Source of the DNA: Alphaproteobacteria bacterium
Lineage (GTDB): Bacteria; Pseudomonadota; Alphaproteobacteria; Reyranellales; Reyranellaceae
Length of the DNA stretch: 64,000 nt
Assembly: GCA_016869975.1 (NCBI GenBank)
Contig: VGCZ01000025.1
Coordinates: forward strand, 1-64,000
Reading direction: 5' to 3'
In this document: in pieces, positions 11,072 through 15,024 of the stretch
How the letters are laid out: each line of letters opens with the position of its first letter
How positions within the stretch are numbered: position 1 is the stretch's first letter
Notes under the pieces: generated by a model
The model's database searches: none
Told to the model about the DNA's origin: nothing
Seen by the model: the letters and a program-made list of their open reading frames with translations, nothing else
Program-made: the position numbers and the translations under genes

Positions 11072-11491
11072 TCATCGGTCGGCCTTGACGGAAATCGGCG
11101 TCGGACAGGGCTTGCCCTCGGCCTCGCATATCGCGTCCACCACGCCGATTCCGACGATATCAGCGCAGGCGGCCCCCATCGGTCGCGATTCGTCGCCGTG
11201 GACGACCAGCGGGCGCATCGCGTCCGGCGCGATCGGCCGGCTCACGCCATGACGATAGGACGACTTGAACTCTTGCCTGTGCGTACGACCGTCGCGTAGC
11301 GCGAATTCGAGATCGACCTGGACGTAGTCGACGGGCCGGCGCGATCGGTTGTGCGCGATCAGCGACGGTACGCAGGAGCCGAACACCGTCGTATCGGGGC
11401 CGCGCGTCACGACGATGATGTCGTCGGCGCGCGATGGCGTAGCAAGCGCGAGCGCGGTCAATAAGACCGCGGCGGGGCGACGACCGATCAT
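11072..11491 (-). CDS. Small secreted protein of unknown function
   Basis: A 139-residue protein with a signal peptide (MIGRRPAAVLLTALALATPS, cleaved near SRA-DD). The mature region has three cysteines and a beta-rich look (VDYVQVDLEFALRDGRTHRQ), but no family is recognised. Its ATG overlaps the stop codon of ppsR as ATGA, so it is translated together with ppsR. Nothing in it suggests a link to pyruvate metabolism. Confidence 0.65.
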   Translation of the reverse strand: MIGRRPAAVLLTALALATPSRADDIIVVTRGPDTTVFGSCVPSLIAHNRSRRPVDYVQVDLEFALRDGRTHRQEFKSSYRHGVSRPIAPDAMRPLVVHGDESRPMGAACADIVGIGVVDAICEAEGKPCPTPISVKADR

Positions 11492-12327
11492 TCCGCGATA
11501 TCCCCGCGCCTGGCTTCGCGGCGTTGCGCCAGGATCTGCATGATCGCCGCGGCGGTTTCCTCGATCGAGCGGCGGGTAACGTCGATGCTCTGCCAGCGCT
11601 TGCGCGCGTAGTAGCGCCGCGCCGCCTGCATCTCGGCCTGCACCTTCTCGATGTCGGTGTAGTCGCTCTCGGTTTCCTCCTGCAGCAGGCGCAACCGATT
11701 GCGGCGGATCTGCACCAGACGCTCGGGATCCGTGGTCAAGCCGATCACCAGCGGCCGCGTCGCGCTCTCCAGCTCGGGCGGCGGCGGCACGTCGGGCACC
11801 AGCGGTATATTGGCCGCCTTCACGCCACGATTGGCGAGGTAGACGCAGGTCGGCGTCTTGGAGGTGCGCGAGGGCCCGACCAGGATCACGTCGGCGTCGT
11901 CGATGTCGTGCGTCGACTGACCGTCGTCGTGCGCCAGCGTGTAATGCATGGCGTCGATACGGCCGAAATACTCGTCGTCGAGCGCGTGCTGGCGACCGGG
12001 CCACATCGCCGTCTTGCTGTGGAAGTGCACGCCCAGCATGCTCATCGCCTGGTCGAGCACGCCGACGCAGGGCAACTGCAGACGCCGGCAATGCTCGCGC
12101 AGCCGGTCGCGCAACTCCGGATCGACCAGGGTATAGAGCACAGGGCCACGATTGAGCTCGATGGCGCCGGCGACCTTGTCGATCTGACCCACGGTGCGGA
12201 TCAGCGGCCAGGTGTGCTCGGTGACGAATACGCCCTCGAACTGCACCAGGCAGGCGCGCGCCACGCTGGTGACGGTCTCGCCGGTCGAGTCCGATACCAA
12301 GTGGACGTGGAAATTGCGGCTGCGCAT
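11488..12327 (-). CDS. ppsR: PEP synthetase/pyruvate-phosphate dikinase regulatory kinase-phosphorylase (DUF299)
   Basis: A ~279-residue bifunctional regulator that uses ADP to phosphorylate, and phosphate to dephosphorylate, a threonine of PEP synthase or PPDK. The start FHVHLVSDSTGETVTSVARA and the P-loop-like VGPSRTSKTPTCVYLANRG are diagnostic. The chosen start is the ATG at 12327 (MRSRNFHVH); an upstream in-frame ATG at 12345 would add six residues. It is divergent from hemE. In Caulobacter and other alphaproteobacteria this gene and hemE flank the chromosomal origin. Confidence 0.93.
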   Translation of the reverse strand: MRSRNFHVHLVSDSTGETVTSVARACLVQFEGVFVTEHTWPLIRTVGQIDKVAGAIELNRGPVLYTLVDPELRDRLREHCRRLQLPCVGVLDQAMSMLGVHFHSKTAMWPGRQHALDDEYFGRIDAMHYTLAHDDGQSTHDIDDADVILVGPSRTSKTPTCVYLANRGVKAANIPLVPDVPPPPELESATRPLVIGLTTDPERLVQIRRNRLRLLQEETESDYTDIEKVQAEMQAARRYYARKRWQSIDVTRRSIEETAAAIMQILAQRREARRGDIAE

Positions 12328-12698
12328 CGCCGCAAGCTTACCCACGCCAGCCGGGGAATAACAGGTGGACGAACGCCGACGTCATCCCCGATGCGCACCG
12401 TCGACACCAGCGATACGCGCCATCGTCCCCGCCGGCCGTCGCCGAACGCCGCGAATCCTCCGCCGGGGATTTTCGACCGGCGCCGATGGCGAAGGTCGGG
12501 GATAGCGAATTCATCCCCGTTGTCCCCGATATTGTCGCGGCACCAGGTCTCGGCCGAATCGCGGCAAATTCGCCTGTGCCGACCGCGCTGTCCCCATGCT
12601 ATCCATCATCCCGAGCAGCCTGTGGGCGGCACGGGGATGAATTTGATCCCCGCGCTTCACACGGCCTACTTCTTCTCCTCCTTAAGATTCAAAGATTC
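12328..12698. other. Candidate chromosomal replication origin (oriC) in the ppsR-hemE gap
   Basis: This 371-bp gap holds ten TCCCC/GGGGA sites (starting at 12353, 12385, 12426, 12465, 12498, 12514, 12523, 12591, 12633 and 12647), most in a TCATCCCCGAT-like context. Two pairs form inverted repeats, around 12497-12519 and 12632-12652. Caulobacter origin W-boxes, weak DnaA sites, are recalled as having a TCCCC core. Four GANTC (CcrM-type) sites lie at 12453, 12556, 12686 and 12694, and the hemE-proximal end is AT-rich. No perfect TTATCCACA box is present. Gene order matches the known alphaproteobacterial origin; function is inferred. It must also contain the two divergent promoters. Confidence 0.6.
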
Positions 12699-13745
12699 AT
12701 GAAAGAGAAGAAGACAAGAAACCTTATCCGTGCGCTTCGTGGAGAACGGCTGAAAAGCCCGCCGATCTGGCTGATGCGACAGGCGGGACGGTACCTGCCG
12801 GAGTATCGCGCGGTGCGGGCCAAGGCGGGCGGCTTCCTCGATCTCTGCTATACGCCGGACTTCGCCACCGAGGTGACGCTGCAGCCGATCCGCCGCTATG
12901 GCTTCGACGCAGCGATCATCTTCTCCGACATCCTGGTCATCCCGCATGGACTGGGCCAGGCGGTGTGGTTCGAGGAAGGCGAGGGACCCAAGCTCGAGGC
13001 GCTGTCGGGTCCCGGCGATCTGGCGAAGCTGTCGCGGGCGTCGGTCGAGGACAAGCTGGCGCCGGTCTACGCCGCGATCCGCGCCACGCGCGCGGCGCTG
13101 CCGGAGGAAACCGCGCTGATCGGCTTCTGCGGCGCGCCGTTCACCTTGGCGAGCTACATGATTGAGGGGGGTTCAAGTCGCGACTTCTTCAAGATCAAGC
13201 AATGGGCCTATGGCCACCCCGACAGCTTCCGCCGGCTGATCGATCTGCTGGTCGAGGCCTGTATCGATCACCTCGACCGTCAGGCCGAAGCCGGCTGTGA
13301 GGTGGTGCAGATCTTCGATAGCTGGGCCGGCGTGCTGCCGGAGGAACAGCTCTTCCGCTGGTCGGTGCAACCCATGCACGCCATCGCCAAGGGACTGAAG
13401 GCAAGACGACCCGATCTGCCGATTATCGTCTTTCCGCGCGGCGTGGGGCCGGCGGCGCTGATGTATCGCCGTTTGCAGGAGTTCGACGCGCTGTCGATCG
13501 ACACCGCGATCGGCGCGCATTGGGCGGCCGAGCAGCTACAGCCACATATCGCCGTGCAGGGCAATCTCGATCCGGCCATGCTGGTGACCGGCGGCGAGGC
13601 GATGGCGCACGAGACGAAGCGCATTCTCGGCAAGCTCGCCAGCGGCCGGCACATCTTCAATCTCGGCCACGGCATCGTGCCGCAAACGCCGCCCGACAAC
13701 GTCGCGCGCCTGGTCGAGATCGTGCGCGAGTGGTCAACCCGATGA
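12699..13745 (+). CDS. hemE: Uroporphyrinogen decarboxylase
   Basis: A 348-residue cytoplasmic enzyme that removes four carboxyl groups from uroporphyrinogen III to give coproporphyrinogen III. The substrate-binding motif PIWLMRQAGRYLPEYR (residues ~24-39), FSDILVIPHGLG with the catalytic Asp, GFCGAPFTLASYM and the C-terminal NLGHGIVPQTPP are all present. The start MKEKKTRNLIRAL at 12699 fits the family length; a longer upstream frame reads through the origin-like gap and is rejected. No obvious ribosome binding site precedes it. It heads the heme block hemE-hemH-hemJ, with a palindromic repeat between hemE and hemH. Confidence 0.96.
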   Translation: MKEKKTRNLIRALRGERLKSPPIWLMRQAGRYLPEYRAVRAKAGGFLDLCYTPDFATEVTLQPIRRYGFDAAIIFSDILVIPHGLGQAVWFEEGEGPKLEALSGPGDLAKLSRASVEDKLAPVYAAIRATRAALPEETALIGFCGAPFTLASYMIEGGSSRDFFKIKQWAYGHPDSFRRLIDLLVEACIDHLDRQAEAGCEVVQIFDSWAGVLPEEQLFRWSVQPMHAIAKGLKARRPDLPIIVFPRGVGPAALMYRRLQEFDALSIDTAIGAHWAAEQLQPHIAVQGNLDPAMLVTGGEAMAHETKRILGKLASGRHIFNLGHGIVPQTPPDNVARLVEIVREWSTR

Positions 13746-13754
13746 TCCTCCATT

Positions 13755-13855
13755 GTCGTCCCGAGCGTAGCGAAGGACCGCGCGGTGCGGAGGCCATGTC
13801 AATGCGCCGAGTATGTTCGCATCATCGCGAGGTCCTTCGCTCAGCTCAGGACAAC
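13755..13855. repeat. Dispersed palindromic element, copy B (hemE-hemH gap)
   Basis: Left arm GTCGTCCCGAGCGTAGCGAA begins at 13755 and the right arm, reading TCCTTCGCTCAGCTCAGGAC near 13833-13852, is its imperfect reverse complement. It fills almost the whole gap between hemE and hemH and abuts the hemH ribosome binding site (CAGGAG), so it could influence hemH expression through RNA folding. Same family as 1775-1839 and 37459-37560. Confidence 0.85.
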
Positions 13856-13866
13856 AGGAGCGTCGC

Positions 13867-15024
13867 ATGAAGGTCGCGGTCGTTCTGTTCAATCTCGGTG
13901 GGCCCGATTCTCCCGAGGCGGTCGAGCCGTTTTTGCGCAATCTGTTCAACGATCCGGCGATCATCGGCGCGCCGGGTTTCGTGCGTCGGCCGCTGGCGCG
14001 GTTCATCGCGTGGCGCCGTGCGCCGGTGGCCCGCGCCATATACGGCGAGATCGGTGGTCGGTCGCCAATCCTGCCGCAAACCGAGGCGCAGGCGCGCGCG
14101 CTGGAACGCGTGCTGAGCCAACGGCATCCCGAGATCCAGTTCCAGGCCTTCGTCTCGATGCGCTACTGGAATCCATTGTCCGATGCCGTGGTGCCGGCCG
14201 TGAAGGCCTGGAACCCCGACCGCGTCGTCCTGCTGCCGCTCTACCCGCAGATGTCGACGGCGACGTCGGAATCCTCGGTAAAAGACTGGTTCGCCGCCGC
14301 GGCGCGCGCCGGCCTACATGCGCCGAGCCACGTCGTCTGTTGCTATCCGACGCAGGCCGGCTTCGTCGAAGCGGCCGCCGGCCTGATTCGCGCGGCGATC
14401 GACAAGCTCGACGGACAACCCTGGCGTCTGCTGTTCTCGGCCCACGGCCTGCCGGAGAAGGTCATCCGCCGCGGCGATCCCTACCAATGGCAGGTCGAGC
14501 AGAGCGCGGCTGCCATCGTGCGGCAACTGGCGCTGCCTAACCTGGACTGGGGTGTCTGCTATCAGAGTCGGGTCGGTCCGCTGAAATGGATCGGGCCTTC
14601 GACCGAGTCGGAGATCCAGCGCGCCGGCGCCGACCGAAAGGCCGTTGTGCTGTTTCCTGTGGCCTTCGTCTCGGAGCACTCCGAGACCCTGGTCGAGCTC
14701 GACATCGAATATCGCGAGCTGGCGCACAAATCCGGCGTACCCGCTTTTCATCGCGTCGGGACGGTCGCCATTCACGACGCGTTCATCGGCGGGTTGGCGA
14801 GCCTGGTCGCCGGACTCGTCGTGGCGCCAGACCGATGGGTCGTCAATGACGGGAACTTCGCGGCCTGTCCGGCGACGCATCGTCGTTGTCCGCTGACCGA
14901 GCAAGCGCGCATGGCGACGGGACAGCGGCCGTCCAGCCCGCTGTGGCCGGCCGCTGCCGCTGTTGCAACCCGTGCCGGCGCCACCAGCACTTCGTCCTCA
15001 AGCGGCGTCAGTCGCGCGGAATAG
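13867..15024 (+). CDS. hemH: Ferrochelatase
   Basis: A 385-residue enzyme inserting Fe2+ into protoporphyrin IX, the last step of heme synthesis. Typical motifs: VVLFNLGGPDSPEAV at the start, FVSMRYWNPL, LLFSAHGLPEKVI with the metal-binding His, and FVSEHSETLVELDIEY with the catalytic Glu. The start at 13867 (MKVAVV) is preceded by CAGGAG; a longer frame would be encoded by the palindromic repeat and is rejected. The C-terminal ~60 residues form an unusual Ala/Ser/Thr-rich tail after a CPATHRRCP motif that could hold cluster or metal cysteines. hemJ starts 3 bp later. Confidence 0.95.
   Translation: MKVAVVLFNLGGPDSPEAVEPFLRNLFNDPAIIGAPGFVRRPLARFIAWRRAPVARAIYGEIGGRSPILPQTEAQARALERVLSQRHPEIQFQAFVSMRYWNPLSDAVVPAVKAWNPDRVVLLPLYPQMSTATSESSVKDWFAAAARAGLHAPSHVVCCYPTQAGFVEAAAGLIRAAIDKLDGQPWRLLFSAHGLPEKVIRRGDPYQWQVEQSAAAIVRQLALPNLDWGVCYQSRVGPLKWIGPSTESEIQRAGADRKAVVLFPVAFVSEHSETLVELDIEYRELAHKSGVPAFHRVGTVAIHDAFIGGLASLVAGLVVAPDRWVVNDGNFAACPATHRRCPLTEQARMATGQRPSSPLWPAAAAVATRAGATSTSSSSGVSRAE

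Follow-up and report, generated by a model that had tools for sequence, protein, structure and literature searches.

The ppsR-hemE gap of a Reyranellaceae bacterium as a probable chromosomal replication origin dense in putative weak DnaA sites

The replication origins of Caulobacter and Rickettsia are located between hemE and a COG1806 gene (PMC1914354), a precedent which the first-pass annotation of the DNA studied here had cited correctly. Cori of Caulobacter crescentus contains G-boxes (TGATCCACA) and W-boxes, the latter being defined as TCCCCA and bound very weakly by DnaA (PMC4285127), and raising the affinity of its boxes can lower replication (PMC4468827). Cori raises the question of how initiation can be correctly timed by low-affinity DnaA sites alone. 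The BUS layout, found in Bacillus subtilis and most bacterial oriCs, consists of a DnaA-box, a spacer (most commonly of 13 bp) and DnaA-trios, and is described in a paper that makes no mention of Caulobacter (PMC8287927). No paper on a Reyranella origin was found in the literature searched, in which subscription journals are only partly covered.

The ppsR-hemE gap described below shares with Cori its boundary genes, W-box-type cores, GANTC sites and a CcrM homologue encoded in the genome, while its box TGATCCCCG bears the TGATCC start of the G-box. It differs from Cori in carrying ten TCCCC sites rather than five W-boxes, in having neither a G-box nor a TTATCCACA box within one mismatch, and in that no TTAA-N7-TTAA was found in the gap and no GcrA in the genome. 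The boundary genes hemE and COG1806 are likewise those of the Rickettsia prowazekii origin (PMC1914354), although the latter, compared by its description, is 82.6% AT in a 71% AT genome as opposed to approximately 37% AT in the present gap.

Location of the gap and chromosomal landmarks

The window, i.e. the whole 64,000-nucleotide stretch of DNA analysed, is one end of a 73-kb contig (C25) in a 4.84-Mb draft assembly of 96 contigs (G000). The HemE protein of the nearest named relative, a 'Reyranellaceae bacterium' MAG, is 96% identical. Searches covered three congeners (G008, G011 and G005) and 57 further members of the family. The principal features are:

11488-12345, minus strand: ppsR ORF (COG1806/DUF299 family, pyruvate-water dikinase regulatory protein), left boundary gene, divergent
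12346-12698, no strand: putative oriC of approximately 350 bp, as indicated by the skew flip and parS proximity in relatives, the TCCCC cluster and a BUS-like module
12699-13745, plus strand: hemE (uroporphyrinogen decarboxylase), right boundary gene

As the ppsR ORF starts at 12345, the true gap is approximately 12346-12698 and not 12328-12698 as noted previously. It lies between divergent ppsR (COG1806) and hemE, the synteny of an alphaproteobacterial hemE-type oriC; ppsR is 97% identical among congeners and 57-85% over the class, and is divergent from hemE in nearly all cases. An in-frame ORF at 12486-13745 overlaps part of the gap and was not accepted as coding, because the gap measures either 352 or 353 bp among congeners, a difference of a single base. 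An Rfam search of the window returned no match, and thus no known RNA element explains the gap. Beyond hemE, an inverted-repeat-like sequence (CCGAGCGTAGCGAAGGACC ... GGTCCTTCGCTCAGCTCAGGAC) at 13750-13870, between hemE and hemH, resembles a dispersed repeat.

A cumulative skew minimum elsewhere on the chromosome had been named as evidence that would speak against an origin in this gap, and relatives were examined in this regard. In the complete 5.79-Mb genome of G023, for which fifty 20-kb stretches were sampled round the circle together with a contiguous 120 kb about hemE, GC skew changes from negative to positive at the hemE region, with the expected sign in 49 of 50 stretches. The cumulative minimum within the contiguous 120 kb falls at 4,989,509, approximately 2.5 kb from the gap (at ~4,987,000), and the sampled cumulative maximum (2.11 Mb) is 0.504 of a chromosome length away. 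The flip at hemE is weaker in G022, with hemE at 4.69 Mb and the sampled minimum at 4.68 Mb, and in the congener G005 (means of -0.0033 and +0.0055, p = 0.012), in whose contiguous stretch cumulative skew is lowest at 711 kb, at a distance of 52 kb from the gap. Skew in this genus is weak. The draft itself was read per contig and its signs agree with those of the relatives, the values being +0.0042 on the hemE side and -0.0043 on the ppsR side of C25, and -0.0147 on C47, which adjoins the ppsR side by synteny with G005.

Consistent with a parABS locus close to the origin, six genomes of the family (G002, G004, G005, G009, G022 and G023) have parS at a distance of 12-20 kb from hemE, while the parS pair of the present genome is on C47, beside mnmG, parA and parB (gene names from reading of the translations). 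The skew flip and parS proximity in relatives, together with the conserved TCCCC cores described below, support the original proposal, and the gap is very probably the chromosomal oriC of this member of the Reyranellaceae, an origin of the hemE type known from Alphaproteobacteria.

TCCCC sites, their conservation and the scarcity of strong DnaA boxes

The gap was said to hold ten TCCCC/GGGGA pentamers, and ten were counted, out of 68 in the entire window, where no 371-bp stretch away from the ppsR-hemE locus holds more than five; dinucleotide shuffles of the gap (n = 2000) gave a mean of only 1.8 and a maximum of 7. Their description as mostly TCATCCCCG-like needs a small correction, in that TCATCCCCG itself accounts for only three and the remaining sites have different NTCCCC forms. 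The cores are:

12353-12357, minus strand: W-box core 1 (TTATTCCCC on the minus strand), invariant in four congeners
12385-12389, plus strand: W-box core 2 (TCATCCCCG), invariant
12426-12430, plus strand: W-box core 3 (TCGTCCCCG), not conserved
12465-12469, minus strand: W-box core 4, invariant
12498-12502, minus strand: W-box core 5 (CTATCCCCG), core invariant and preceded by A or G
12514-12518, plus strand: W-box core 6 (TCATCCCCG), core invariant, forming an inverted pair with core 5
12523-12527, plus strand: W-box core 7 (TTGTCCCCG), invariant, in direct tandem with core 6 in 9-bp register
12591-12595, plus strand: W-box core 8 (TCCCCA form), opening the invariant block TCCCCATGCTATCCATCATCCCG
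12633-12637, minus strand: W-box core 9 (TCATCCCCG on the minus strand), CATCCAC (canonical core) in G005
12644-12652, plus strand: box TGATCCCCG with W-box core 10 at 12647, invariant

Both of the inverted repeats reported previously are present, as CGGGGATagcgaattcATCCCCG at 12497-12519 and CGGGGATgaatttgATCCCCG at 12632-12652. The longer form WTCATCCCCG has 38 scattered sites genome-wide, and pairs separated by less than 300 bp occur only in the gap (122 bp apart) and on C20, where two sites of the same orientation lie approximately 276 bp apart (G000:C20:37744-38029).

The gaps of the four congeners contain 10, 9, 9 and 8 TCCCC sites, and eight of the ten cores are invariant; loss of the sites in close relatives, also named beforehand as a refuting observation, was thus not what the alignment revealed. 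Invariant columns make up 45 of 50 in the cores versus 142 of 270 elsewhere in the gap (p = 1.5e-7), a result matched by just one of 319 circular shifts. The base preceding the core can be A or G while TCCCC is retained, and in G005 CATCCAC takes the place of one site; as judged from the aligned gaps, such changes are those expected of a DnaA core variant. Since the four congeners are few and related, the hemE and ppsR promoters could account for part of this conservation. A further block, CGAATCGCGGCAAAWTCGC at 12551-12580, is nearly invariant among congeners, contains a GANTC and no TCCCC, and is a possible site of another protein.

The canonical or G-type DnaA box of hemE-type origins is lacking: in keeping with the absence of a good box noted previously, no site in the gap is within one mismatch of TTATCCACA or TGATCCACA, the best being two-mismatch sites at 12338 and 12644. 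Gaps without any box within one mismatch account for three of four congeners, 16 of 32 other Reyranellaceae and six of 61 loci elsewhere in the class, such a box being present in the remaining 55. Altered DnaA specificity was considered and is not supported, because the DnaA of this bacterium retains both domain IV motifs, RPRQVAMYL and GNRDHTTVMHAVRKI, as do members of the family that have a larger number of canonical boxes. Among the ten genomes searched, two congeners only (G000:C15:48115, L049, and G005:C7:155515, L048) encode a further protein that weakly matches the DnaA C-terminal domain (domain IV), below the Pfam cut-off.

A putative BUS-like unwinding module and possible cell-cycle elements

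At the hemE-proximal end of the gap, a box, a spacer and a series of trios, absent from the first-pass annotation, were identified:

12644-12652, plus strand: trio-proximal box TGATCCCCG, invariant, anchoring the BUS-like module
12653-12665, plus strand: 13-bp spacer in which a second DnaA box is present in decayed form (CTTCACAC; in congener G011, TGGTCCACA)
12666-12683, minus strand: six DnaA-trios (top strand CTACTTCTTCTCCTCCTT, bottom strand 3'-GAT GAA GAA GAG GAG GAA-5'; definition from PMC8287927)
12684-12698, no strand: AT-rich end with two GATTC (GANTC) sites, immediately upstream of the hemE start
12556-12560, no strand: GANTC (CcrM-type) site inside a block conserved in congeners

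By its sequence this putative module matches the BUS layout. It agrees with that of B. subtilis and most oriCs in order, strand and spacing (box, 13 bp, six NAN trios, AT-rich DNA), the trios being twice the minimum of three on the correct strand, and differs in that the anchor is TGATCCCCG and not TTATCCACA and in that the second box is decayed. The anchor, 13 bp from the trios, has two mismatches to the Caulobacter G-box and three to TTATCCACA, the latter being more than the default limit of the published BUS search (two mismatches, 0-16 bp from the trios). In most Reyranella gaps CATCCCCACATGCCACAGGCC-CTACTACTGCTACTA occupies the corresponding position, and trios are likewise present in most. 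The AT-rich end noted previously was borne out, with 57-68% AT over 12660-12719 versus 25-47% in the remainder of the gap.

GANTC sites occur at 12453, 12556, 12686 and 12694, the four that had been reported, against approximately 0.6 expected from the window, and the genome encodes, at C11:56434 (L238), a CcrM-like methyltransferase that has a RAMA domain. CcrM and GcrA act together in Caulobacter; a Pfam PF07750 search of the G000 genome did not find GcrA. CtrA sites of the form TTAA-N7-TTAA are a Caulobacter trait, and control of the gap by CtrA was set aside as it contains no such site, a single TTAA being present at 12682.

W-box-type sites across the class and a proposed model of initiation

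In order to place these sites in context, 61 further ppsR-hemE gaps were collected, mostly from other families of Alphaproteobacteria. Seven of these (L083-L089, assigned by name to the family where numbered under L170) were sorted by locus number, and loci from L170 upward all lie outside the family according to the search table. In a ranking of hexamers made on this class set alone and without prior choice of words, the three leading words are at about the same level, with ATCCCC (134 seen, 14.5 expected) in second place by enrichment beside TTATCC (120, 11.1) and TCCACA (112, 12.0); ATCCGC and ATCCTC number 26 each. ATCCCC is found on the hemE strand in 52 of the 61 gaps versus 14.4 in shuffles, and is followed directly by a TTATCCACA-like 9-mer (at most three mismatches) in 23 of the 61 versus 0.4 in shuffles, the fullest tandem form being ATCCCCG-TTATCCACA-GG and then CTAC/CAAC repeats.

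This enrichment, often in tandem with a DnaA box, suggests that W-box-type sites are a general element of alphaproteobacterial origins, tied to the unwinding module, and the TCCCC sites are not in themselves unusual for the class. What is unusual in this genus is only their density, with four of the top five values among 97 gaps, and the near-loss of strong boxes. The earlier view of an origin leaning on weak sites is in agreement with the sequence (three of four congeners versus six of 61 lack a box within one mismatch) and was broadly right. We lean, with some reserve, towards ATCCCC being a second class-wide DnaA word, placed in 9-bp tandem with the canonical box as a platform beside the DnaA-trios, and dominant in this genus, where it would give an essentially weak-site-only oriC.

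In the model that we propose, binding of DnaA to the TCCCC cores, in which C replaces the A of the TCCAC core of a DnaA-box, would be weak and cooperative, as it is at the W-boxes of Caulobacter (PMC4285127, PMC4468827). Paired and tandem sites would nucleate a DnaA oligomer, the trio-proximal box at 12644 would steer it towards the strand bearing the trios, and melting of the AT-rich end would allow helicase loading. With strong boxes all but lost, the origin would fire through the cooperative occupation of numerous weak sites, and hence with a steep response to the level of DnaA-ATP; methylation of GANTC by CcrM may contribute cell-cycle control.

It is conceivable, albeit unlikely, that within a genuine origin the TCCCC sites serve a different replication or cell-cycle regulator as its operators, DnaA using only the degenerate boxes by the trios. 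The TCCCC core is unlike the canonical core, W-box binding in Caulobacter is very weak (PMC4285127) and DnaA binding here is predicted, all of which would accommodate such a regulator; however, TCCCC and TCCAC have flank preferences in common (ATCC[A/C]C and GTCC[A/C]C are enriched, ATCCGC and ATCCTC are not), TCCCC stands in 9-bp register with canonical boxes over the class, and the CATCCAC of G005 joins the two cores at one site. That the cluster is instead a transcription-factor operator array for the divergent ppsR and hemE promoters, with the origin elsewhere near by, is highly improbable: the gap is indeed a divergent promoter region, but the G023 skew flip falls within about 2.5 kb of it, a trio module is present, and a pattern search of the genome revealed no canonical-box cluster anywhere (53 TKATCCACA sites, none less than 1 kb from another). 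Chance or the composition of GC-rich intergenic DNA, with high genome GC as its sole point, has a negligible claim given the shuffle results, and was already refuted by the invariant cores among congeners.

Taking the gap as a DnaA origin of weak sites, this genus would provide a naturally occurring example in which W-boxes number ten and strong boxes are all but absent, and in which origin finders based on TTATCCACA would detect little. In many alphaproteobacterial gaps (L170-L237), CAAC repeats (bottom strand 3'-GTT-5'; e.g. CAACAACAACTATAAG) occupy the expected trio position, and these are possibly deviant trios without the middle adenine, the existence of which was suspected by the BUS authors (PMC8287927).
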